From Chlorobiaceae bacterium (GTDB lineage Bacteria > Bacteroidota > Chlorobiia > Chlorobiales > Chlorobiaceae), in assembly GCA_013335115.1 (NCBI GenBank), contig JAAXWQ010000003.1, positions 1 through 64,000 on the forward strand: a DNA stretch of 64,000 bases. The letters run 5' to 3'. A program made the translations under genes and the position numbers. Position 1 is the stretch's first letter; each line of letters begins with the position of its first letter. Under the pieces are notes generated by a model. It made no database searches. It worked only from the letters and a program-made list of their open reading frames with translations, and was not told the origin of the DNA. This document shows, one piece after another, positions 23,527 to 60,386 of the stretch.

Positions 23527-23817
23527 TTATCGAGATGACGGCGTGGGCGACATGCTGATTATTGTTACCTCCGGGTCGCTATACTCTCCGCTCGTCGCCC
23601 TGCATACGGCCTGGTATGGCCCAGATGGCCATGATTCGCTGGTCTGGATACGACGCTCATAAGCACCAAGCGATCCATCGACCGCAGTCATATCGGCGTG
23701 ATTAACCCTCACGACACCTCTCGGATCTATCAGGGTTACAGTAACCGACGACGGAGTGATGCCTCCTTCCACTGTGACCGTCGTCTGTATCTTGATTGGG
23801 CTTCCGATTCTCGGCAT
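23527..23817 (-). CDS. Small phage protein, possible Ig-like fold
   Basis: 96 residues, function unknown. The sequence is beta-rich with a pattern seen in small Ig-like or YtkA-like domains (TVTVEGGITPSSVTVTLIDPRG, then SWPSGPYQAVCRATSG), but the match is weak. It starts 2 nt after the tail-fibre stop, so it is the last gene of the late operon and may be a fibre accessory or capping protein. Confidence 0.55.
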   Translation of the reverse strand: MPRIGSPIKIQTTVTVEGGITPSSVTVTLIDPRGVVRVNHADMTAVDGSLGAYERRIQTSESWPSGPYQAVCRATSGEYSDPEVTIISMSPTPSSR

Positions 23818-23819
23818 AC

Positions 23820-26108
23820 TTATTCCTCCCTGATCGTAATTTTCTGGTTTATGAATTTTTCTGCCTTGATGTGCTGATCGATAACACTCGACACAGCCAC
23901 CACCTGCGTTATCGCCGCATCAGCCACGACGGTCTGCTGCATGACAGCACCAACAGATACTGATTGCATCATGATCCGCGACACCTGCATCGCCGAACAC
24001 CGCACCGGAGCACCCGGCTGCCACGGCCTTCCAGCATCCGGGATACCCGACATGAGTCCGGCAGTTTCGAGCCCATACCTCTGCCCGATAGTCGCCGCGA
24101 CCACCTCCGGTAGTTCCGCCGAGATGTCCGATGCTCGGAGCATATCGACGAGTCCGATGTGCGGAGCGTCCAGCATAGGAGCACCTGCTGATATGCCACC
24201 GACAAACATGGCGTACACTTCACGAGCTTCCGGGTACCCGGACACCGGAGCCCCCGATGAGATGCCCGCCGATGCGAGCGCAACGACCTGCTGTAGCGTC
24301 GGCATCCCCGCATCAGGCCTTCCGGAACCGATGCCGGTGGCAATAACCGCATGCGACTGCCCGACGCACGGAAGCGCACACTCAGGCCTGCCGGATTCGA
24401 CCCCGGCCGCTTCAAGGTTGTCAACCTGACCTATTACCGGACGACCGGCTACCGGGGTTCCGGCCGATACCGAAGCCGCCATCAGGTGCGACACGACCCC
24501 GACCGATGGGCCAGCCAGGTCTGGCCCCGGCGCCTCAAGATTTGACGCCGACAGGTTGCTGATTACCGCCAGACCAGGAACACCGGCTGTTGGTATGCCG
24601 GCCGAAAGCCAGACCGCCGACACCGACTGCTCCTGACTGATCGAGGACGCGGAAAGATTGGGAACCCCGCTTGAGATGTCGGCTCCGTGAAGAACCTGCC
24701 CACTGGAGAAATCCGGCGAATCAAGGGTAGGTATCCGAGACGTCAGCACACTCGCTGAAAGAACGTGCGCCTGTAAGGCATTTGCCGGAGACAGGATAGG
24801 AGCTCCGGCCGCGACCGTTACAGCCTCGATAACGTGTGCCTGAGCGACCGACGGCACCCCTGAAACAGGAACGCCGGCAGATATTCCCGACGTCGAGATC
24901 CCGTGCTTCTGAGCCAGCGATGGGACGCCGGTGTCAGGTATCCCGGAGGAAATGGGAGCCGCACCAAGCGCCGTCGTGATTGCGATGATCCCTACCGCCA
25001 GCACCGGGACACCGGCAGAGATGACTGTACCGGCGAGGCTGTGTGTTTGCCCGATCATCGACAATCCCGAACTCGGCACCCCCGAGGATGCGCCGGATGC
25101 CCCCATGGTGTACACCATCGTCAACGTCGCTCCGGAAAGCTCCGGAGATCCAGAGTTGAGCGCTGCCGATCCCAGAGTATGACGCTGCCCAATAGCTGAC
25201 GAGTCGATCGCCGGGGCCGTACCACTTATCGAGGATGCCGCAAGATCAATAGATGATACGACTGAACTTGTTGGCGTTTCAAGCTCCGGAGCACCGGGGC
25301 TTATGCTTGTCGCTGTAAGTTCCCGAGGTGGCGTTACCTCCTGCGTCGCCGTTGGGGTTCCAAGGATCGGCGCCGCTGTATCAATGCTGGTCGATGATAG
25401 CGCTATCGGAGGTATCACCGTATACGTGATCCGCACCCATCCCTGTGCACCGGTTCCACCTGCACGGTTTGTCGTCGTCCTCCTGACGCATCCGCCGCCA
25501 CCGCCACCATAGACGCTGCCGGAGTTTCCGGCAAAAGAACCTGTACTCGATGTACTATAATTTGACGCAGCGCCTTTGCCACCGGGCGATACACCATTTC
25601 CACGCTGTGACGGGCCATTCATCATCGATGGTATCGCATCAGCCGCGACTCCACCGGGCCCAGAAGCACCGCCGCCACCACCGCCACCTAAGTTTGTCTG
25701 ACCGTCCTGTCCTCGGCCTCCGATATATATGGTAGATCCGACAGCACCGCTACTTGATGGAGTCGCGGCTGATGCTGAGTTTACTGGCCCTCCTCTCCCA
25801 CCTGGAGCCAGGACAAGCAGACTGCTGGTGCTTGAGTTCGTGACCGACGAACCAGAACCATTGACGGTGCTGCTATATGATCCTGTGGCTGCCGTGTTAA
25901 CGATGATCTTAAGCGAGTCCCCAGGGGCAACGGTTGCCGTTGCGGCGCAATAGCATCCGCCCTGTCCGCCACCTCCATATCCGTTTGTATTCCGCCCTCC
26001 GCCAGCTCCGCCGCTGCCGATCGCCTCGACAAAAACTGACGTAACGCCAACCGGGATTGTCAACCAACTATATCCAGGGGTCGTATATGTCAGTACCGTT
26101 TGTGCCAT
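23820..26108 (-). CDS. Tail fibre: polyglycine domain plus about twenty 23-residue repeats
   Basis: Predicted receptor-binding fibre of 762 residues. Residues about 1-230 hold a beta-strand opening followed by a glycine-rich part with runs such as GGGGGGGAS and YGGGGGG, like polyglycine-helix tips of phage adhesins. From about 235 to 700 there are about twenty tandem units of 23 residues with the pattern x-L-x-A-x-x-I-S-S-G-x-P-x-x-G-x-P-x-x-x-Q-x-H. One unit is TMGASGASSGVPSSGLSMIGQ followed by TH. The last 60 residues (MQVSRIMMQSVSVGAVMQQ onward) look helical. The stop codon overlaps the next ORF's start region. Repeat shaft proteins of this kind are known in other tailed phages. Confidence 0.75.
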   Translation of the reverse strand: MAQTVLTYTTPGYSWLTIPVGVTSVFVEAIGSGGAGGGRNTNGYGGGGQGGCYCAATATVAPGDSLKIIVNTAATGSYSSTVNGSGSSVTNSSTSSLLVLAPGGRGGPVNSASAATPSSSGAVGSTIYIGGRGQDGQTNLGGGGGGGASGPGGVAADAIPSMMNGPSQRGNGVSPGGKGAASNYSTSSTGSFAGNSGSVYGGGGGGCVRRTTTNRAGGTGAQGWVRITYTVIPPIALSSTSIDTAAPILGTPTATQEVTPPRELTATSISPGAPELETPTSSVVSSIDLAASSISGTAPAIDSSAIGQRHTLGSAALNSGSPELSGATLTMVYTMGASGASSGVPSSGLSMIGQTHSLAGTVISAGVPVLAVGIIAITTALGAAPISSGIPDTGVPSLAQKHGISTSGISAGVPVSGVPSVAQAHVIEAVTVAAGAPILSPANALQAHVLSASVLTSRIPTLDSPDFSSGQVLHGADISSGVPNLSASSISQEQSVSAVWLSAGIPTAGVPGLAVISNLSASNLEAPGPDLAGPSVGVVSHLMAASVSAGTPVAGRPVIGQVDNLEAAGVESGRPECALPCVGQSHAVIATGIGSGRPDAGMPTLQQVVALASAGISSGAPVSGYPEAREVYAMFVGGISAGAPMLDAPHIGLVDMLRASDISAELPEVVAATIGQRYGLETAGLMSGIPDAGRPWQPGAPVRCSAMQVSRIMMQSVSVGAVMQQTVVADAAITQVVAVSSVIDQHIKAEKFINQKITIREE

Positions 26109-27427: not shown

Positions 27428-27867
27428 GATAAGAAGAGCTTTCGCTCCGCTTCCCTGCGCCGGACAAGTCCGGGCAGCTTTTTCCCGCCACCAACTACCC
27501 ATCGCCCGAACTCGTCGGCAGCCTCCTTGAGTTTGCCTTGGTTGACCAGTTTGAGCAGCGTGCTGGTGCGGAGATTCTGCGCCCCGACGTTGTAGGCAAA
27601 GTCGACCAGGGCGTCGAACTGGTTCTGGTTAAGCCTGACGGCGACGTATCGGTTGACTGCGGCCTCATACTCAGCAAGTGCCGCACGCATGATCTCGACA
27701 GCCTGCAAATCGTTAATAGGCGGGTCGGGGAGTTTGACCGGTCTGCCGTCGGCATACCGTGTAGACCCGTAGCCGATGGTTGGCACTCCTGCAGGGCACA
27801 GATAGGGTTTCGGAGAAAAGCCCTCGCTTGATTCGATGAGTGCGATAAGTTTACCACTCGCTTTCAC
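27424..27867 (-). CDS. Endolysin, GH24 (T4-lysozyme family)
   Basis: Peptidoglycan muramidase of 147 residues. The start contains the catalytic region: LIESSEGFSPKPYLCPAGVPTIGYGST, with the catalytic Glu in SSEG and the GYG-T element. In this subclass a Cys takes the place of the T4 Asp. NQNQFDALVDFAYNVG and GLVRRREAERKLFLS are family hallmarks. There is no signal peptide or SAR segment, so it needs a holin. It overlaps the holin genes on both sides by 4 nt, a typical lysis cassette. Confidence 0.93.
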   Translation of the reverse strand: MKASGKLIALIESSEGFSPKPYLCPAGVPTIGYGSTRYADGRPVKLPDPPINDLQAVEIMRAALAEYEAAVNRYVAVRLNQNQFDALVDFAYNVGAQNLRTSTLLKLVNQGKLKEAADEFGRWVVGGGKKLPGLVRRREAERKLFLS

Positions 27868-36787: not shown

Positions 36788-36803
36788 GGTATTTGTCTTT
36801 TTG

Positions 36804-36875
36804 TGCCGGGAGAGGGACTCGAACCCTCAGCCTCCTGATTATGAGTCAGGTGAGCTACCACTGCTCCATCCCGGT
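36804..36875 (-). tRNA. tRNA with CAU anticodon, inside the structural operon
   Basis: A complete 72-nt cloverleaf: 7-nt acceptor arms, D stem GAGC/GCTC with loop AGTGGTA, anticodon stem CCTGA/TCAGG with loop CTCATAA (anticodon 36841-36843), 5-nt variable region, T stem GAGGG/CCCTC with loop TTCGAGT. Position 1 is A opposite C72, a mismatch, and CCA is not encoded. It lacks the three G-C pairs of initiators, so it is elongator Met or the isoleucine tRNA that TilS modifies; sequence alone does not decide. Confidence 0.92.
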
Positions 36876-39612: not shown

Positions 39613-41135
39613 GGCATCTCCTTCATGATTGCGATTGCAAATTCGATCGAACCAATACCGCCTCTGCTCTTTGCGTAGTCCGCGCACGCTTGCGCAAGGG
39701 CTCCGTCATCGTAAACAAGGCCGACAATGGCGCACGCGTTTTCGACGGTCTTAGTGAGGTTCTCGTACAGTTCAGCGCTGACCTTACGATAAAACTCGTC
39801 ATCGGCCTTGCCGTTCTCGGAGGCTTTTGCCTCCTTGCGCTTTGTTCGGTCTACCACTTCGGCAATGATGGCGACGGTCGACTCGTGCACGGCCGAGCTG
39901 CGCTTGGATTGCTGGCCTTGTGCTTGCTTCTGCGCTGCGGCGTCCTGCACTTTATCGAGCGGGATCATGTTCAGCGGAACAAGCCTCGTGCGTCCAAGAC
40001 CGTCAGGCAGCTCGTCAAGATCCTCTTTCGCTCTGATCTCGTCGATGTCGAGGGCTCCGAGGTCGCGCATCCGTGTGTAGAACTCTGCGCGTTCCGACGG
40101 GGATCCGCGCAGCATGGCGTTGAAATCGAACTTTGTGTAGAGTGCTCCTCGCTCGTCGGGGCGGAACAGCTTCCGCTTCACTTCTTTTTCCCAGGCGATG
40201 CATCGCGGCATGATGCACTCCTCGATGTGTTCCTTGGCGTTCTGGAAGATGTTGCTGTGGGTTTCTCGATCCATCAGGCCCAGCTTGTATGCCTTGATGC
40301 CGAACCAGCGGGCGATTTCCTCGATGGTGAATTTTCGGCTGTCAAGGAACTGCGCCTCTTCCGGTGTGATGGCCCACTTCTCGACTTTCATGCCTTCCTG
40401 CAGCAGGATCGGCCGGCCAGTGTTGCCAGCTCCGGAGTACATTGACGCAATCGATGAGCGGATATTTCGCTCAGCGATATCGCTTAGTTGGTTCGGGTGC
40501 GAAAACACCGCCGAAGGCTTCAGCCCGTTTCGGAAAATGCTGTTGCTTGTCTTCTGCTGTGCGAGGCCACCGCCGACGGTCTCGCGGGCATATGCAAGCA
40601 CAGACATCCCGGTGATGCCGTCGAAGCTCAGGCCTTTGATGTGGAGGATGTTTTCCGGCTTGATCGGCTTCTCTGATCCTGCCGGGGTGTGGTACCGATA
40701 ATACAGAGCCCCTCCTGGCGTTCGATCCGGCCTGATCATGTCGGGGTCTATCAGCCACAGCGCGACAGGATCCCCGATTCGGTTGCGTATGATCTCTGCG
40801 TATGCGTTGCCCTTCAGCTCTCGATGCACCTGCATGGTCTTGACGAACGTGCCAGCATCCATTTCCGGATTCGGCTCCGTACTGATCAGGTAATCGACCG
40901 GGTGGTCATGGCGGCGGACGCGCTTGCCTTCCTGCTTCTCGTAGACGCCCCACGGCAGGCTCATCATGTCGTCCGTGATAATCTGGACGCAGCGATACAG
41001 TGCGGACAGACGCAGTGATGCGTCAACGCTCACGCGCTCGCCTGAATCAGTGCCCATCCATCCTGATGCGCCGACATCGGCCTGCCATTCCCTGTTTGGC
41101 TCAGGCGATGATGCAAACAGTCTGTCAAGAAACAT
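39597..41135 (-). CDS. Portal protein, HK97 family
   Basis: 512 residues from the ATG at 41135. Conserved portal segments: VSVDASLRLSALYRCVQIITDDMMSLPWGVYE, HPVDYLISTEPNPEMDAGTFVKTMQVHRELKGNAYAEI, ILHIKGLSFDGITGMSVLAYARETVGGGLAQQ and TIEEIARWFGIKAYKLGLMDRETHSNIFQNAKEHIEECIMP. The C-terminal 120 residues are an added charged helical part (AQGQQSKRSSAVHE onward) not needed for the portal core. It starts 10 nt inside a small TM gene. Confidence 0.95.
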   Translation of the reverse strand: MFLDRLFASSPEPNREWQADVGASGWMGTDSGERVSVDASLRLSALYRCVQIITDDMMSLPWGVYEKQEGKRVRRHDHPVDYLISTEPNPEMDAGTFVKTMQVHRELKGNAYAEIIRNRIGDPVALWLIDPDMIRPDRTPGGALYYRYHTPAGSEKPIKPENILHIKGLSFDGITGMSVLAYARETVGGGLAQQKTSNSIFRNGLKPSAVFSHPNQLSDIAERNIRSSIASMYSGAGNTGRPILLQEGMKVEKWAITPEEAQFLDSRKFTIEEIARWFGIKAYKLGLMDRETHSNIFQNAKEHIEECIMPRCIAWEKEVKRKLFRPDERGALYTKFDFNAMLRGSPSERAEFYTRMRDLGALDIDEIRAKEDLDELPDGLGRTRLVPLNMIPLDKVQDAAAQKQAQGQQSKRSSAVHESTVAIIAEVVDRTKRKEAKASENGKADDEFYRKVSAELYENLTKTVENACAIVGLVYDDGALAQACADYAKSRGGIGSIEFAIAIMKEMPCIGQ

Positions 41136-41286
41136 GCTTGCGCTTGATGTGTGGATAAATCGACACGAAAAGCAGCACAACTCCAGACACTATCAGCGCA
41201 ACGCCGATACCGTACTGCAGGGCGACCCCGGAGATAAGGCAGGCGAGCCCGATGACGAAAATGATGTCTGAAATGCTTGGCTTCAT
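41125..41286 (-). CDS. Small two-TM phage protein (53 aa)
   Basis: Starts MKPSISDIIFVIGLACLISG and has a second hydrophobic stretch ALIVSGVVLLFVSIYP, ending in a basic HIKRKHVS. Small two-TM proteins are often found just before portal genes in HK97-like phages, with unknown role. It overlaps the portal start by 11 nt. Confidence 0.7.
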   Translation of the reverse strand: MKPSISDIIFVIGLACLISGVALQYGIGVALIVSGVVLLFVSIYPHIKRKHVS

Positions 41287-41373: not shown

Positions 41374-41399
41374 GTGAAAAGCCCGGTTATAGCCGGGCG
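41374..41399 (-). terminator. Terminator between the HTH/PLD cassette and the portal genes
   Basis: On the minus strand GCCCGG and CCGGGC pair around CTATAA and are followed by CTTTTCACTTC. It overlaps the end of the 113-residue HTH gene. A second hairpin, GTGCT/AGCAC (41354-41367), follows. Portal transcription must start or read through here. Confidence 0.6.
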
Positions 41400-41728
41400 T
41401 CGTCGTCAATCTTTTCGCGTTTTGGCCGGGTTCCGAATCCCCGTGCCTTTGTCTTGGTTGCGGCTTTCTCGATGTCCGCCTGCACTGCGTTGATGGCGCT
41501 GGCGTTGCCCTCGACGGCCGTCTTGAACCTTGCCACTTTGAGAAGTGCACGACCTGACGCCGCTTTGCTTTCGGCCCACTTATCGAAGCTGGTGCCCTTG
41601 CCGTGCGCTGAGATGTACTGCGCTCTCAGCTCTTCGATGGTTACGCCGACAAGCAGGGCAACCTCCTCTACGCTGCATTGCGCCTGGAAGTATTGCCCGG
41701 CCTGTTTGAAGTCGACAACTGCGCTCAT
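41387..41728 (-). CDS. HTH protein resembling terminase-small N-terminal domains
   Basis: 113 residues. The middle, CSVEEVALLVGVTIEELRAQYISAHGKGTSFDKWAESKAASGRALLKVARFKTAVEGN, has the helix-turn-helix pattern found in small-terminase-like and phage Phi29-type DNA-binding domains. A basic C-terminus (KTKARGFGTRPKREK) would help DNA binding. This phage already has a P27-type small terminase, so it may be a regulator or a second DNA-binding subunit. It overlaps the PLD-like gene's end by 4 nt. Confidence 0.6.
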   Translation of the reverse strand: MSAVVDFKQAGQYFQAQCSVEEVALLVGVTIEELRAQYISAHGKGTSFDKWAESKAASGRALLKVARFKTAVEGNASAINAVQADIEKAATKTKARGFGTRPKREKIDDDARL

Positions 41729-42540
41729 GGCTTAGAATGGGGCGTTGTCGTAGTTGAAGTTCTGCTGCTTGTACGTGTTTTTTCCCTTACGCTTTTTCGC
41801 GTTGGTGCTCCTGGTCGCGTTGTATCGCTTCCATTTTCCGCTTCCACTACCTGCCATAGCTTGTTCCTCCTGAGTGATTTGTTGATGATCGCATATTCCT
41901 TCAGCACGACGTCGTGATACGCTTGGCAAAAATCGAAATACTCCGGGTTTTCCTCGATCGTGAACTGCTCAACACATGCTGATGACCGGAGATTGGCGCT
42001 GCCGTGAATCACAAACTTCTTACCGCCGTCCGTCTCAAAGATAACGATTTTGGTATGAGATGATGCAACGGCGAGCTGGAAGCGGTCGTCCTTGTCCAGC
42101 TCCTGCAGCATGTACGGCACCAGTCCGTGGCGTTCGTTTGCATGGAAATAGTCGCTCACGATCAAATCCAGGCTATCGACGTATCCGCCGTCGAGCAGGT
42201 TGCTGAAGCTGTCGATGTTCTCGTCTGACAGGCTTAGCGTCGATACAGACAGCTTTTTCGTGTGGATGTTTCGCTCGACAAACAACGCCTCGATGAAGTC
42301 GCCGAAAATAAAGTTCCCGCTGACGATCGCGTGTGATCTTGTGCCGCTTCCGATCTCCATAGCCTTGGCCATCTCCACCGCGTTGTTGAATTTGACGTGG
42401 CGCTCTGGGACGTAGAGGCTCCCTGCTTTCTTCGGGTTGATGTACCGGTTTTCGTGCTCTTCAAGGAACGACGTGTCGAAATCCAGGTCAAACTCTGGCG
42501 TCTCAAAATCCAGCATTTCGAATAGTCCGTAATCAGCCAT
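41725..42540 (-). CDS. PLD-superfamily (HKD motif) protein
   Basis: 271 residues. One phospholipase D-type motif is visible: SSHTKIVIFETDGGKKFVIHGSANLRSS (H-x-K then G-S-x-N, about residues 160-187), and an earlier degenerate half may lie around GSGTRSHAIVSGNFIFGDF. Single-motif PLD proteins act as dimers and are often nucleases. The C-terminal 45 residues are low complexity, rich in T, S and R, and overlap another small gene in a different frame. It sits between terminase and portal, where a PLD protein has no standard packaging function. Confidence 0.65.
   Translation of the reverse strand: MADYGLFEMLDFETPEFDLDFDTSFLEEHENRYINPKKAGSLYVPERHVKFNNAVEMAKAMEIGSGTRSHAIVSGNFIFGDFIEALFVERNIHTKKLSVSTLSLSDENIDSFSNLLDGGYVDSLDLIVSDYFHANERHGLVPYMLQELDKDDRFQLAVASSHTKIVIFETDGGKKFVIHGSANLRSSACVEQFTIEENPEYFDFCQAYHDVVLKEYAIINKSLRRNKLWQVVEAENGSDTTRPGAPTRKSVREKTRTSSRTSTTTTPHSKP
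41732..41857 (-). CDS. Small basic protein nested in the 3' end of the PLD-like gene (41 aa)
   Basis: Starts MAGSGSGKWKRYNATRSTNA and continues KKRKGKNTYKQQNFNYDNAPF. An AGGAGG site 8 nt before its ATG (41857) is one of the best in the region, which argues that it is translated. It lies in another frame within the low-complexity tail of the PLD-like gene. It might bind nucleic acid; no family recognised. Confidence 0.55.
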   Translation of the reverse strand: MAGSGSGKWKRYNATRSTNAKKRKGKNTYKQQNFNYDNAPF

Positions 42541-42766
42541 TTGCTGCCTTGCTTTTGTTTCGCTTTGTTGCCCGCTCCATCACCAGCCGCTTTCCGGCCT
42601 CAGTGTACGCCACACCTCCGCCGTATTTCGCATAGTGCAGCCCCTCGGTAAGCTCCGAGGGGTAAGCGTACTTCCCGACCTTTTGACCGTTTCGGAGGTT
42701 TTGCAGCGTCTTCCTGGTGTATCCGGAGAGCTTTGCCAGCTCGTCTTCTGTGTACTGCTTTTTCAT
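42533..42766 (-). CDS. Small DNA-binding protein, MerR/excisionase-like
   Basis: 77 residues from the ATG at 42766. YTEDELAKLSGYTRKTLQNLRNGQKVGKYAYPSELTEGLHY follows the pattern of a MerR-type winged helix (HTH, then wing), and the basic C-terminus (ERATKRNKSKAAN) fits DNA binding. It overlaps the PLD-like gene start by 8 nt, so it may regulate that cassette. Confidence 0.6.
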   Translation of the reverse strand: MKKQYTEDELAKLSGYTRKTLQNLRNGQKVGKYAYPSELTEGLHYAKYGGGVAYTEAGKRLVMERATKRNKSKAANG

Positions 42767-42798
42767 TGCTGCGATACCTTTGTGATAGTTGATCTGTG

Positions 42799-43074
42799 TC
42801 AGTATTTCGGCATCAGATAGCTGTCGGACAGATACTCCCCGATGCGCTCCCATGCAGTATCCTCAGCATCATCGGACAAGCAGGAGAGGACCACATCGAC
42901 AACCGACTGGTTCTTGATCACTTCTTTTTTCTCAGCATACCCTCCGGTATTTCCGACCCACTTGATATAGGGCGACTTGACCGTGATCTTATCGGCGTAG
43001 ACTCTCGCGACATACTCGCAGTTGTCGTAGATCCCTACCTTGACGTCTTTGGTGATTGTGTGCTTTGGTGACAT
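42799..43074 (-). CDS. Hypothetical phage protein (91 aa)
   Basis: The ATG at 43074 has GGAG 8 nt upstream; the longer open frame is not supported. The sequence (KVGIYDNCEYVARVYADKITVKSPYIKWVGNTGGYAEKKEV) is beta-rich then helical. No family recognised. Confidence 0.55.
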   Translation of the reverse strand: MSPKHTITKDVKVGIYDNCEYVARVYADKITVKSPYIKWVGNTGGYAEKKEVIKNQSVVDVVLSCLSDDAEDTAWERIGEYLSDSYLMPKY

Positions 43075-43105
43075 GATGACTTCTCCGTTTTGTTTTTGCT
43101 GTTGG

Positions 43106-43462
43106 TTACTTACCTTCTTCCCATTCTCCCCAATCACCCTCTCCGATCGCGTCATTATCAATTTTGCGAATATCCAGGATGGCTTCATCAATGCCGATGG
43201 GTTCAGCGTTTTCGACATTTCCATACCACACACTATCGACGCCACGCTCTTTTGCTTCCATCAATTCGATGAGCATAGAGTCCTTACGCGTCTCAATAAT
43301 CCAGCGCTCATTTCCGGAAAAAGCAACCTGGCTGTTGTCATCGAAGACAAAGACGCTCGTCTCGCTCTTCCAAAGCTGATTTTCAGCGATTGCGTGTGCG
43401 CATGCTGACTCAGCGGCTTCGTTGAGGTCGGCGATTTCCATGATCTTTTCTGCTTGTGTCAT
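43106..43462 (-). CDS. Hypothetical acidic phage protein (118 aa)
   Basis: Acidic, helical N-terminus (EKIMEIADLNEAAESACAHAIAENQLW), a beta middle (VFVFDDNSQVAF) and a Glu/Gly/Trp-rich end (GEGDWGEWEEGK). The RBS CGGAGACGACA before the ATG is nearly identical to that of the next gene. It is the first gene of the HTH/PLD cassette after the terminase. Confidence 0.55.
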   Translation of the reverse strand: MTQAEKIMEIADLNEAAESACAHAIAENQLWKSETSVFVFDDNSQVAFSGNERWIIETRKDSMLIELMEAKERGVDSVWYGNVENAEPIGIDEAILDIRKIDNDAIGEGDWGEWEEGK

Positions 43463-43506
43463 TGTCGTCTCCGTTTTCGTTGTCGATGTTGTTGTTGTTG
43501 TCTCCT

Positions 43507-43565
43507 CACTTATAATATACCGTTTTATTCCAGAAAAAAGAATAAAATAATAAAAATAATGAGAT
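43507..43565 (-). promoter_or_regulatory. AT-rich promoter-like spacer after terL
   Basis: The 108-bp gap between terL and the acidic gene is strikingly A/T-rich on the minus strand (runs of A and T, then TATATT at 43519-43514) and ends in a CAA-repeat leader. It is the longest non-coding gap in the late region, so it likely drives the cassette. No clean -35 box is visible. Confidence 0.35.
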
Positions 43566-43570
43566 TTTTT

Positions 43571-45259
43571 TCACAACATCCGGACGCCCTGGCGCTCGTA
43601 AATGCTGGCCACGGATCCCTTAACATCTTTCAGCCAAACAACCAGCCCGAGTATTGACGCCATGACGCCATCAATCTTCGATTTCGGGTTTTCCTTGCTC
43701 AGGAAATAATTTTTGTTCACGGTCGATTTCAGCATGGCATTTGCGAACATCCAGATCAGGACCTTGTCTTTTTTGTCGAACACGAACTTGCCGTCGTAGA
43801 TGATCGCTTCCATTTCTTTCATTGGTGGCGAGATGTGTTTCGGCGACATAGGGACTTCAATGCATGTGAGCTTCGGCATCTCCTTCTGGATGCCCTGGAT
43901 GAGGTGCAGCGCGTTGTATGCGTCGTACCCAAGACCGCGGATCTCGTATTTCTTGGTGTCGGCTTTAACATCCTCAAGGATATAGTCGTAGTCTGTCCTG
44001 GCTCCGGGTGTGACGGTTATCAGCCCTTCAGCGGCCCATTGCTGCAGGTGAGCATTCTCGATGAGGTTTACCGTGTCTTCTGGCAGGTAGTATTTCAACA
44101 GCACGTGGTACCGGTCGCCTTGCTTGAACATTCGGGCATATGCGCATATATCGATTACTTTTGCAAGATCAAGCCCCAGGGCGCATTCCTCGCCAAGAAA
44201 ATCGTCCTCGTTCAGGTCTTCACCGCACTTGCCGAACTTCTTCATGTTGATCCACGCCTGCCCGCTGTTACTCCAAACATTCAGGTGCTTGCACTTGATG
44301 ATGTTCTGCTTCTCAGCCTTGGTCGTCGCCTCGTGGAGCTGCGCCTGCAGGTAATCCTCGAAAACTGAGACGCCGATGTTTGGGTTTGCTTTTGCCCAGA
44401 CGTTGAAATCCGTCCAGTCGTCCTCGGAATCAATCGTATATACCACCGCCCACAAGCGGTCATTCTGCATTGTCCCTCGCAGCACATCGATAGCGTCGCC
44501 TCGCGCAGTGTAGCACGGTGCTGACGTGTCTGTTCCGGCTGTGGTTATAACTGGCATCATCGGCTGACGGCGAGCTCCCATGCCTGTTTTCATGGTCTCA
44601 TACAGCACTGGTGTCGGATGCTCGTGGTACTCGTCGACAATCGCGCATGACGGGCTGGCTCCATCACCCGGGTTCCCAATGATCGGTAGGAACTTCCCGC
44701 CGTTTGACCGGCAATGGATCCCGGTCGGGTTGTCCCGGCTACCGGTGAGGTTGATGTCGAAGTGCTTGCGCAGTTCCTCGTCGTTGTTGATCATCATCCA
44801 CGCCGGATCGTAGACGAAATGCGCTTGCTTCTCGCTGGTGGCTCCCGAGTAGACTTCTGGTGCGCCCTCGCCGTCGGCCAGCAGCATGTAATTGCCGATA
44901 ATAGCCCCGATCTGACTTTTTCCGTTCTTTCTTGCGATTTCGGCGTAAATCTCACGGTACCGGCGCAGGTCATCACTCTTGCGTACCCACCCGAACGGAA
45001 CACCAAAGGCAAAACATTGCCACGGCTCCATCACGATCTGTCGTCCTCTCCACTCGCCTTTGATGTGCGTCATGGCCTCGGCGAATCCGAGGAATCTGTC
45101 GGCGGCATCCTGGTCCCAGTAGTACGGGAAATCTTTATCATCCTGCCGCGCAAGGTCTCCTGTGTGCCGCTGAACAGCAAGACGAATGAACTCACACGAC
45201 GGGATCTCTCCTGATGAGACTCCGGAGCAATACCCGGCTATCTTGTCGGCGTAGGTCAT
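43571..45259 (-). CDS. Terminase large subunit
   Basis: DNA-packaging motor of 562 residues. Walker A-type ARKNGKSQ lies near residue 112; the Walker B region CAIVDEYHEH (DE) is near 215; a coupling TTAG follows. The nuclease half has LGLDLAKVIDICAYAR and the late acidic GVMASILGLV region. It belongs to the HK97/lambdoid Terminase_1-like group, which pairs with P27 small subunits. It overlaps the small subunit by 4 nt. Confidence 0.93.
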   Translation of the reverse strand: MTYADKIAGYCSGVSSGEIPSCEFIRLAVQRHTGDLARQDDKDFPYYWDQDAADRFLGFAEAMTHIKGEWRGRQIVMEPWQCFAFGVPFGWVRKSDDLRRYREIYAEIARKNGKSQIGAIIGNYMLLADGEGAPEVYSGATSEKQAHFVYDPAWMMINNDEELRKHFDINLTGSRDNPTGIHCRSNGGKFLPIIGNPGDGASPSCAIVDEYHEHPTPVLYETMKTGMGARRQPMMPVITTAGTDTSAPCYTARGDAIDVLRGTMQNDRLWAVVYTIDSEDDWTDFNVWAKANPNIGVSVFEDYLQAQLHEATTKAEKQNIIKCKHLNVWSNSGQAWINMKKFGKCGEDLNEDDFLGEECALGLDLAKVIDICAYARMFKQGDRYHVLLKYYLPEDTVNLIENAHLQQWAAEGLITVTPGARTDYDYILEDVKADTKKYEIRGLGYDAYNALHLIQGIQKEMPKLTCIEVPMSPKHISPPMKEMEAIIYDGKFVFDKKDKVLIWMFANAMLKSTVNKNYFLSKENPKSKIDGVMASILGLVVWLKDVKGSVASIYERQGVRML

Positions 45260-49889: not shown

Positions 49890-50102
49890 TTAAAAAAGGC
49901 TCTGCTGGTAAATCCTTAGCTCGCTCTCTTCTGTCTTGATGAGGTTGCCTCCGACTGTCTCGATGCGGTACATATATCTCTCTGTCGGCTCGTCTCGGTC
50001 GGCGATAAGTATCTCGATCACCTCGGCCATGATGCCGCGATACAGGACGCGGTAGCCTTTGCCGTAGGCTGGTTCGTGGTGGTTGGTGGTGACGTAGATC
50101 AT
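49890..50102 (-). CDS. Hypothetical phage protein (70 aa)
   Basis: From the ATG at 50102, overlapping the PAPS-reductase-like stop by 4 nt. Beta-rich: KGYRVLYRGIMAEVIEILIADRDEPTERYMYRIETVGG, resembling small beta-barrel RNA- or DNA-binding folds only in outline. Confidence 0.55.
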   Translation of the reverse strand: MIYVTTNHHEPAYGKGYRVLYRGIMAEVIEILIADRDEPTERYMYRIETVGGNLIKTEESELRIYQQSLF

Positions 50103-50821
50103 AGTGCACACATACATGGTGTTGTATCTTCGTCTGGAAACATCTCGATCTCTCGGCCGCTCAAATCCTTTAGTTGCCTGAGTGTGATGTCACGAAAGAC
50201 CGTGTAATTCCATTTCTCTTCAGCTTGGCAAGCCCGTTCGAACTGTTCCGGGTAATGCTTCGCAATCGCAGCCCAATATCCTTTGGCCCCGGCCTTGAAG
50301 CACGGAATGCAGTTGTTGTGCTTCAGGTACTTATAAGGCTCGGGCAAGCATATGCCCCACTCATCACGTATAATGCGCTTGCAATCATCCGACGACAGTC
50401 CAGCATTGATTAGTGGAAACGCCACGCGCTCACCGTTTGCCGCAGCTCGGGCATCTGACCGTTGCGCTCGGCGGATTTCGTCGATTGAAAATCCGAGGTA
50501 CGAGATGAAGTCTTCGCCAAGCGCTTTCAGGAAGCGATCTGATGGGCGCTGTTTCAGCAACTGCGTGCAGAACGGCATAAACTGACCCGGCAGTGTGTGA
50601 TTGTCATCAATCAGTTCCCACAAATCGCGACCATCAGCGACCACCGTCATTTCGTGCTTGAGGAAGTCGCATATCTGCGCCCTAAATCGGTCAGCATCAG
50701 GATGTTCGCTTTTCGTATCACTGTAAAGCAGAATCACGTCATCATGTCCGATCTCGTCGATAACCAGCTTTGCAACTACTGCGCTGGCGGCCCCGCCTGA
50801 AAATTTCACCACGTGTTTCAT
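50099..50821 (-). CDS. PAPS-reductase-family (PP-loop) protein
   Basis: 240 residues. VKFSGGAASAVVAKLVIDEIG is an ATP-PPase P-loop, and LLYSDTKSEHPDADRFRAQICDFL the next family block. It lacks the ECGLH motif of sulfite-forming PAPS reductase, so that reaction is unlikely. It has a CIPCFKAG motif and a terminal CMC instead. Phage members of the family are widespread and mostly uncharacterised; relatives act in DNA phosphorothioation and tRNA thiolation. It overlaps the MBL-fold gene by 4 nt. Confidence 0.75.
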   Translation of the reverse strand: MKHVVKFSGGAASAVVAKLVIDEIGHDDVILLYSDTKSEHPDADRFRAQICDFLKHEMTVVADGRDLWELIDDNHTLPGQFMPFCTQLLKQRPSDRFLKALGEDFISYLGFSIDEIRRAQRSDARAAANGERVAFPLINAGLSSDDCKRIIRDEWGICLPEPYKYLKHNNCIPCFKAGAKGYWAAIAKHYPEQFERACQAEEKWNYTVFRDITLRQLKDLSGREIEMFPDEDTTPCMCAL

Positions 50822-59198: not shown

Positions 59199-60266
59199 CT
59201 ACAATACGATCCGGTCTGCCGCGTCGTCAACTGCGGAGTCCAGCACCCGGGCGTAGATCTGAGTTGTGCGAACGTCGGAGTGGCCGAGCAGCTTGCTGAC
59301 GACCTCGACCGGCGTACCAGCCGCGAGCTGCAGGATGGCGTAGCTGTGGCGCAGGCAGTGCATGGTGACGTTGCGCGTCACTCCGGCAGCGACAAGGTAC
59401 TCTTGCAGGGAGGTGTTAAGCCCGCCACACCACGGCACCCACCGGAACACCCGGCCCGTCCCTCTTGTCCCGAGCAAGGCCACTGCCTGCGCAGGGATCC
59501 GTTTCCGGCTCCACCTCTGGACCTTTGGCTGCCGGTATTGTATATATATGTGGCCGTCGGCATCCTCGATGACCTGTGACCATTCGAGAGCCTTGATGTC
59601 TGACGTCCGTAAACCGGTCAGCAGCGCGAAAAGGATAATGGACCGGTGCGGCTCGCGGTACTCGGTGGCCATGAGGCTCCGGGCTTCGTTGAGCGATAAG
59701 AACTCTCTTGGCCGTGGCGAACCCTGTATGCTGTCGATACGGTCGTGCAGTGGCTCGCGGATGACCTGGTGCCGATACGCCTGTCTGAGCGCCGTGCGGA
59801 AGCAGGCGAAATATCCCTGTGCCGATACAGGTCGGAGCTTTGTGTCCTTGACTTGCTTGATGAGGTACCGCCGGAACCGGTCGCACCGATCCGCTGTCAG
59901 TGTCGCCATGATGTCGCCGGTGATCCCGCATGAATCGGCATAGTGCCGCATGTTCGTCCACTGCTTCGCCGTCGTACCGGTTCGCTCGTCGGTCAGCTCT
60001 CGCAGGTACTCGCCAACGGTCAGCTCTGATTTTTCCGATAGGAATCCGAATCGGCCATCATCGATCTCTGACTGGCGCTTCGTTCGAACCTTTTCGGCAA
60101 GGGCCATCGTCGTCCGGTTATGTGTCCGCTCTGATGCGGTGGCGGGCTTGTCGAAGATGTAGAGTTCCAGGTACTCCTTAGATCGCTTGCTCTGCCCTCG
60201 ATAAATTTCGAGGTACAGGCTGCGGCGACCGTTTGAGATGAGCTTTGTTCTGACCTTGACTTTCAT
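59199..60266 (-). CDS. int: Tyrosine-family integrase
   Basis: 355 residues from the ATG at 60266. The N-terminal arm-binding domain (KVRTKLISNGRRSLYLEIYRG) is of the type common in Bacteroidetes/Chlorobi elements. A SAM-like core-binding domain follows (about 80-180). The catalytic set is complete: R in LLTGLRTSDIKALEW, HCLRHSYA, LLGHSDVRTT and the tyrosine in QIYARVLD. It sits beside attR, as expected. Confidence 0.95.
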   Translation of the reverse strand: MKVKVRTKLISNGRRSLYLEIYRGQSKRSKEYLELYIFDKPATASERTHNRTTMALAEKVRTKRQSEIDDGRFGFLSEKSELTVGEYLRELTDERTGTTAKQWTNMRHYADSCGITGDIMATLTADRCDRFRRYLIKQVKDTKLRPVSAQGYFACFRTALRQAYRHQVIREPLHDRIDSIQGSPRPREFLSLNEARSLMATEYREPHRSIILFALLTGLRTSDIKALEWSQVIEDADGHIYIQYRQPKVQRWSRKRIPAQAVALLGTRGTGRVFRWVPWCGGLNTSLQEYLVAAGVTRNVTMHCLRHSYAILQLAAGTPVEVVSKLLGHSDVRTTQIYARVLDSAVDDAADRIVL

Positions 60267-60386
60267 GAGGGTACAAGTGGGGGACAAAGTTTATGATATT
60301 CGGGTATACGGCGGGTGATACCAGATTTATTCGACCCCCGAAAAATAAGGCTTTACAGGGCATTAGAGCAAGCACAAAACATGATG

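Follow-up and report, generated by a model that had tools for sequence, protein, structure and literature searches.

A candidate anti-CRISPR locus with an AcrIF2-like gene between the terminase and portal genes of a Chlorobiaceae prophage

Introduction

AcrIF2, which inhibits type I-F and type I-C CRISPR-Cas systems, is a protein with 24% acidic residues and a pI of 4.0 (PMC7913775). Inhibitors that are carried by prophages are an established cause of tolerated self-targeting (PMC10810201, PMC6990116, PMC7648647), and blocked or mutated cas expression is another known escape from it (PMC6990116, PMC10810201). The literature searched yielded no anti-CRISPR from Chlorobi.

The DNA considered here (the window, a stretch of 64,000 nucleotides from a Chlorobiaceae genome) carries a prophage with a cassette of extra genes between TerL and portal. 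The best explanation for this cassette, held with moderate confidence, is that it is an anti-defence accessory locus, probably directed against CRISPR-Cas, which occupies a variable slot and includes an Aca-like regulator. The evidence on the locus was read from the sequence of one genome.

Organization of the cassette and its place in the prophage

The prophage runs from about 23.5 kb up to an integrase gene at 59199-60287; a search for attachment sites gave only a 13-nt shared word, which is unconvincing. The minus strand carries five open reading frames (ORFs) and a sixth, nested one between the TerL and portal genes (Table 1). An earlier note on this DNA had proposed that extra genes form a separately bounded accessory cassette at this point, and this is borne out by the closest prophage relatives found, one from the same genus (G006) and one from the same family (G079), which differ there from the window. 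HNH, TerS and TerL (56%) are common to all three prophages, and the G006 contig (L091), the only one of the two in which the portal is visible, additionally shares the 53-aa gene, portal (65%), Clp protease and capsid. In G006, the stretch from TerL to the 53-aa gene codes for a 124-aa protein, RadC (PF04002) and proteins of 181 and 258 aa; similar genes are found downstream of TerL in G079. RadC and the three other genes occupy the place of the cassette at 8081-10350 of L091 and 4875-6984 of L092. Since other genes follow TerL in two related prophages, the slot is variable and the cassette reads as a real, accessory insertion in a chlorobial HK97-type prophage. The 53-aa membrane gene, judging from its homologue in G006, belongs to the conserved phage backbone and lies outside the cassette. 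TerL relatives were absent from the viral contigs searched, and ten other small ORFs of the prophage matched no known Acr in Pfam.

Two other features of the prophage are a tRNA-Met gene (anticodon CAT) at 36803-36875, in the late gene block directly downstream of the capsid gene, and a phosphoadenosine phosphosulfate reductase-like gene at 50099-50821 (phrog_424, 7e-41), which is of interest given the sulfur-oxidising host.

Overlaps between genes of the cassette (8 nt between the HTH and PLD genes, 4 nt between the PLD and 113-aa genes) indicate that the set reads as a single operon. The gap that separates TerL from the 118-aa gene is 28.7% G+C, compared with 55.6% for the prophage. The promoter-like gap and the terminator suggested earlier as borders are both present, the latter as a GC-rich hairpin and T tract 3' of the last cassette gene, but neither promoter consensus matches around the gap nor such hairpins are more frequent than in shuffled sequences. 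The gap also contains an 8-nt inverted repeat (TTTTATTC/GAATAAAA, 43523-43547), which is A/T-rich and could be due to chance; it is a possible operator. The 113-aa protein encoded at the end of the operon, previously described as a second HTH protein, does look HTH- or TerS-like on inspection, but it had no match in profile searches or among phages and no similarity to TerS of the G019 phage when the two were compared directly (G019 is a genome of the same genus that holds a PLD relative). Searches with the whole cassette against PADLOC and NCBIfam gave nothing useful.

Table 1. Features of the TerL-portal region and perfectly matched protospacers in the window
Feature	Position	Strand	Evidence or remarks
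Protospacer of spacer 9 (in integrase), perfect	60132..60164	-	PAM AAC
Protospacer of spacer 35, perfect	44859..44891	-	PAM AAT
TerL, cassette border	43571..45259	-	phrog_9 E 3e-152; TerL_ATPase/TerL_nuclease; holds protospacers of host spacers 23, 35, 38
A/T-rich gap with promoter-like site	43463..43570	-	28.7% G+C
118-aa acidic protein, AcrIF2-like N-terminal half, candidate anti-CRISPR	43106..43462	-	PF25704, phrog_19304, PDB AcrF2
91-aa protein (u91), phage-restricted, candidate second anti-defence protein	42799..43074	-	Viral relatives, AF2 model
77-aa HTH protein, Aca-like candidate regulator	42533..42766	-	A3 family
PLD-like protein, 271 aa (HTK...GSANLRSS)	41725..42540	-	phrog_16945 endonuclease 1.6e-5; 57 viral relatives
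Nested 41-aa gene, PLD partner, C-terminus ...NAPF	41732..41857	-	AGGAGG upstream of ATG; in relatives, a gene of its own after PLD
113-aa protein, TerS/HTH-like by inspection only	41387..41728	-	No homologue found
Intrinsic terminator-like hairpin closing cassette	41381..41398	-	GCCCGG-loop-CCGGGC-TTTT
53-aa membrane protein, backbone gene beside portal	41125..41286	-	phrog_7105 6e-11; 43% identical homologue before portal in L091
Portal	39597-ca. 41130	-	phrog_12 E 3e-113
Protospacer of spacer 34, perfect	23790..23822	-	PAM AAT

The AcrIF2-like protein

Residues 13-58 of the 118-aa protein match the AcrF2 profile PF25704 (E 1e-4, 22.9 bits). This falls short of the whole domain and of the Pfam gathering score of 27 bits, and because that cut-off is missed the protein is left out of the AcrIF2 family. 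PDB AcrF2 chains match the same N-terminal half (phmmer E 0.004), and the C-terminal half shows no similarity. When aligned with AcrF2, the protein has a Smith-Waterman score of 73, far above shuffles of its own sequence (n=5000; mean 25 +/- 4.6, maximum 50), and the second-best AcrF2 score among the 882 reading frames of the window is 35. The protein is small and acidic as AcrIF2 is, with 23.7% D+E and a pI of 4.12.

Homologues of the 118-aa protein were absent from the viral contigs, phages, plasmids and 150 relatives searched, and so recurrent association cannot be shown; 98 genomes of the order and 14 controls held no other AcrF2 match. A single-sequence AlphaFold2 model of the protein was poor (pLDDT 52), and neither an AcrF2 fold nor a PDB match was seen; the fold search with this model was discarded, as the confidence of the model is too low for the outcome to mean anything. 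The leading hypothesis is that the 118-aa protein acts like AcrIF2.

The 91-aa protein and the HTH protein

The second gene of the operon encodes u91, a 91-aa protein that has relatives in 14 viral contigs and none in 297 other genomes searched. Several of the relatives have RecT, YqaJ, Erf or DUF3560 genes nearby, in early regions (DUF3560 was confirmed by profile, the other three were named by inspection). On one contig (L070/L074), a u91 gene with an HTH relative after it is placed between TerL and portal, the arrangement also seen in the window. The AlphaFold2 model of u91, built with 13 sequences, has four strands and two helices with a pLDDT of 89.7, and comparison of this predicted fold with PDB and BFVD gave no match at E <= 0.001. 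u91 thus forms a phage-restricted family whose predicted fold is of high confidence but unmatched.

The 77-aa HTH protein matches HTH_3, HTH_26 and HTH_17, in each case under the Pfam cut-off, and so it is a small HTH protein for which the previous label of a MerR-like regulator was generous. Its family occurs in 16 of the 150 genomes searched, and a search of its profile against PDB found no relative. In chlorobial elements, relatives of the HTH gene adjoin RadC, DUF3560 or DNA methyltransferase genes (the last named by inspection) together with other small ORFs. The gene is therefore a small HTH gene within an operon, and its kind recurs beside candidate anti-defence genes in different elements, as expected for an Aca. 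The genome has three copies of the family, the two outside the window being located on C20 (L104) and C13 (L105), and one of these is directly downstream of a DUF3560 gene.

The host type I-E CRISPR-Cas system and self-targeting

In the same genome, contig C1 has a type I-E operon of cas3, cse1, cse2, cas6e, cas7e, cas5e, cas1 and cas2. All eight genes are open, and for each of them one or more curated NCBIfam models reach their cut-off (for Cas3, those of the helicase and HD domains); the Cas3 motifs are present. The array has 60 repeats and 59 spacers, and ten of the spacers match the prophage with four or fewer mismatches (three are perfect, five have one mismatch, one has two and one has four). 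Reversed spacers gave no match at five or fewer mismatches (0/59), and chance was rejected as the source of the matches. All ten protospacers have AA immediately upstream and 58 of the 59 spacers have C or T as their first base, from which the PAM is taken to be AAY; AAYN32 is the design motif given for the type I-E system of V. cholerae (PMC7677007). The prophage is thus targeted, with a proper PAM, by the intact CRISPR-Cas system of its own host. Among the imperfect targets, that of spacer 12 (59631-59663) has its PAM changed to AAA, and that of spacer 18 (27680-27712) has its sole mismatch at spacer position 6. A lone stray copy of the type I-E repeat is found at C9:4265-4290, away from the array contig.

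With perfect self-targeting spacers and intact cas genes, some means of blocking or silencing interference must exist in the host. The tolerated targets reveal that interference does not act, though not for what reason. The main rival to an inhibitor, which we consider somewhat unlikely, is that the host CRISPR-Cas system is silent or otherwise non-functional and needs no inhibitor, with the 118-aa gene coding for a small, acidic and unrelated protein of the phage. There are precedents for blocked or mutated cas expression (PMC6990116; PMC10810201), and the AcrF2 match is partial and under the cut-off. All of the cas genes are intact, however, and the AcrF2-like score is far above that of composition-matched shuffles. 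In addition, the many spacers in the array against this type of phage indicate that adaptation has been active, which counts against a silent system.

Alternatively, the assembly could mix strains, with the prophage from one cell and the targeting array from another. The assembly consists of 29 contigs and may be of an isolate or a metagenome bin, but the prophage lies inside a 263-kb contig, the 59-spacer array was assembled in one stretch and contamination is 0.45%, which leaves a mixture improbable.

The PLD-like protein and its partner

The PLD-like protein carries SHTKI...GSANLRSS, identical in both A1 members, and so has the HxK and GSxN motifs. The PLD motif noted earlier is therefore in the sequence, but the PLDc_2 score of 15.6 bits is below the cut-off of 27. 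A search with a profile of the protein reached 57 viral contigs. Among those with enough flank, the region downstream of the PLD gene includes TerL in 46/51 and TerS and a ParB-like gene in 44/51 each, and in 50/51 a short ORF comes directly after the PLD gene (a count that takes in ORFs of unchecked relatedness). The nested protein proposed for the window agrees with this arrangement, as its 41-codon gene has its own ATG and AGGAGG site within the extended PLD frame and encodes a conserved PLD partner, 55% identical to the product of a separate gene in L030. The steady adjacency to ParB, TerS and TerL marks the PLD pair as a terminase-linked module.

The partner ORFs (41732-41857 in the window; L011-L067) are tiny; many are rich in Gly/Ser, and most of them have P[FY] at the C-terminus. 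Small ORFs after the PLD gene have such ends at 47/58 loci as opposed to 13/810 other genes, a contrast that is qualitative only, as each locus could contribute several ORFs and many of the loci are closely related. Some of the ORFs end in DDLPF or DDVPF, and the host SSB ends in DDLPF; it is possible from these termini that the partners mimic the SSB tip.

The conservation of the PLD pair bears on the proposal that the whole cassette is a packaging or auxiliary morphogenesis set, to which we assign a small probability. The position of the PLD gene and its partner beside ParB, TerS and TerL in 44-46/51 contigs and the TerS-like appearance of the 113-aa protein favor such a set. The 118-aa, 91-aa and HTH genes have no copies in the viral PLD loci, however, u91 is found in early regions of other phages, and related prophages lack such genes after TerL. 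The cassette as a pure packaging set was rejected accordingly.

PLD nucleases occur in defence systems, and the PLD protein has a weak PADLOC match to PbeA (E 0.0056), but a PLD nuclease-based module for interference or superinfection exclusion is very improbable and was rejected, as the association in viral contigs is with the terminase region and not with defence genes. The earlier note had placed the PLD protein at the center of such a system while allowing that a conserved packaging set in related phages would refute it, and the PLD and nested pair is conserved in just that way. The pair appears from its gene neighborhoods to belong to the packaging region and not to an exclusion system. 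The role in conflict that was suggested for the cassette does find support, but the gene that resembles AcrIF2, the u91-HTH pair and the I-E array with its self-targeting spacers provide it, not the PLD protein, and the evidence points to counter-defence instead of interference with other phages or their exclusion.

A model for the function of the cassette

An anti-defence locus remains the preferred reading. With an AcrIF2-like first gene and perfect host spacers against the prophage, the operon probably stops host immunity from cutting its own chromosome. In the mechanism proposed, the acidic 118-aa protein would block interference as a mimic of DNA, by binding the host I-E Cascade on its PAM/DNA-binding surface or close to it. 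u91 may act as a second anti-defence protein, and the HTH protein may act at the inverted repeat in the gap to repress the operon, in the fashion of an Aca. The PLD protein and its 41-aa partner would lie in the same operon without taking part in this function, as a DNA-processing module linked to the terminase. A more elaborate version is a chlorobial I-E anti-CRISPR locus with two new inhibitors (u91 and an AcrIF2-derived N-terminal half joined to a different C-terminal half), an HTH protein tied to no known Aca and PLD partners that mimic the SSB tip through P[FY]; we regard this full combination as rather doubtful.

If the preferred reading is true, AcrIF2-type inhibition would reach a third type I subtype and another phylum. 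Guilt-by-association searches in green sulfur bacteria would gain the HTH gene as a marker, and tolerated self-targeting would be testable within one lysogen. Attention would also turn to u91 as a small phage family with a well-predicted fold and no known function.

Comparison with known systems

The PLD protein resembles the phage proteins of phrog_16945 (endonuclease) and phrog_20533 in its single HxK...GSxN motif and its occurrence in phage genomes. It differs in that the profile match is weak (E about 2e-5) and in that the branch found in the window has a partner of ca. 40 aa, mostly ending in P[FY].

The acr-aca operons of proteobacterial mobile elements, such as the aca5 and aca9 loci (PMC7648647), differ from the cassette in that the HTH gene here is not tied to any known Aca and the host belongs to the Chlorobiaceae. 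Unlike in those operons, the HTH gene lies mid-operon, because the PLD module follows it.

The closest counterpart of the 118-aa protein is AcrIF2 (AcrF2, PF25704; e.g. orf30 of Pseudomonas phage D3112); the two are ~40% identical across ca. 47 residues at the N-terminus, FDDNS...SG among them, and carry the same strong negative charge. The 118-aa protein is longer (118 versus 90 aa), has an unrelated C-terminal half and falls under the Pfam cut-off, and the host system is I-E rather than I-F or I-C, with no aca1 identified. The gene for AcrF2 in the temperate phage D3112 is likewise located inside the head-gene block.
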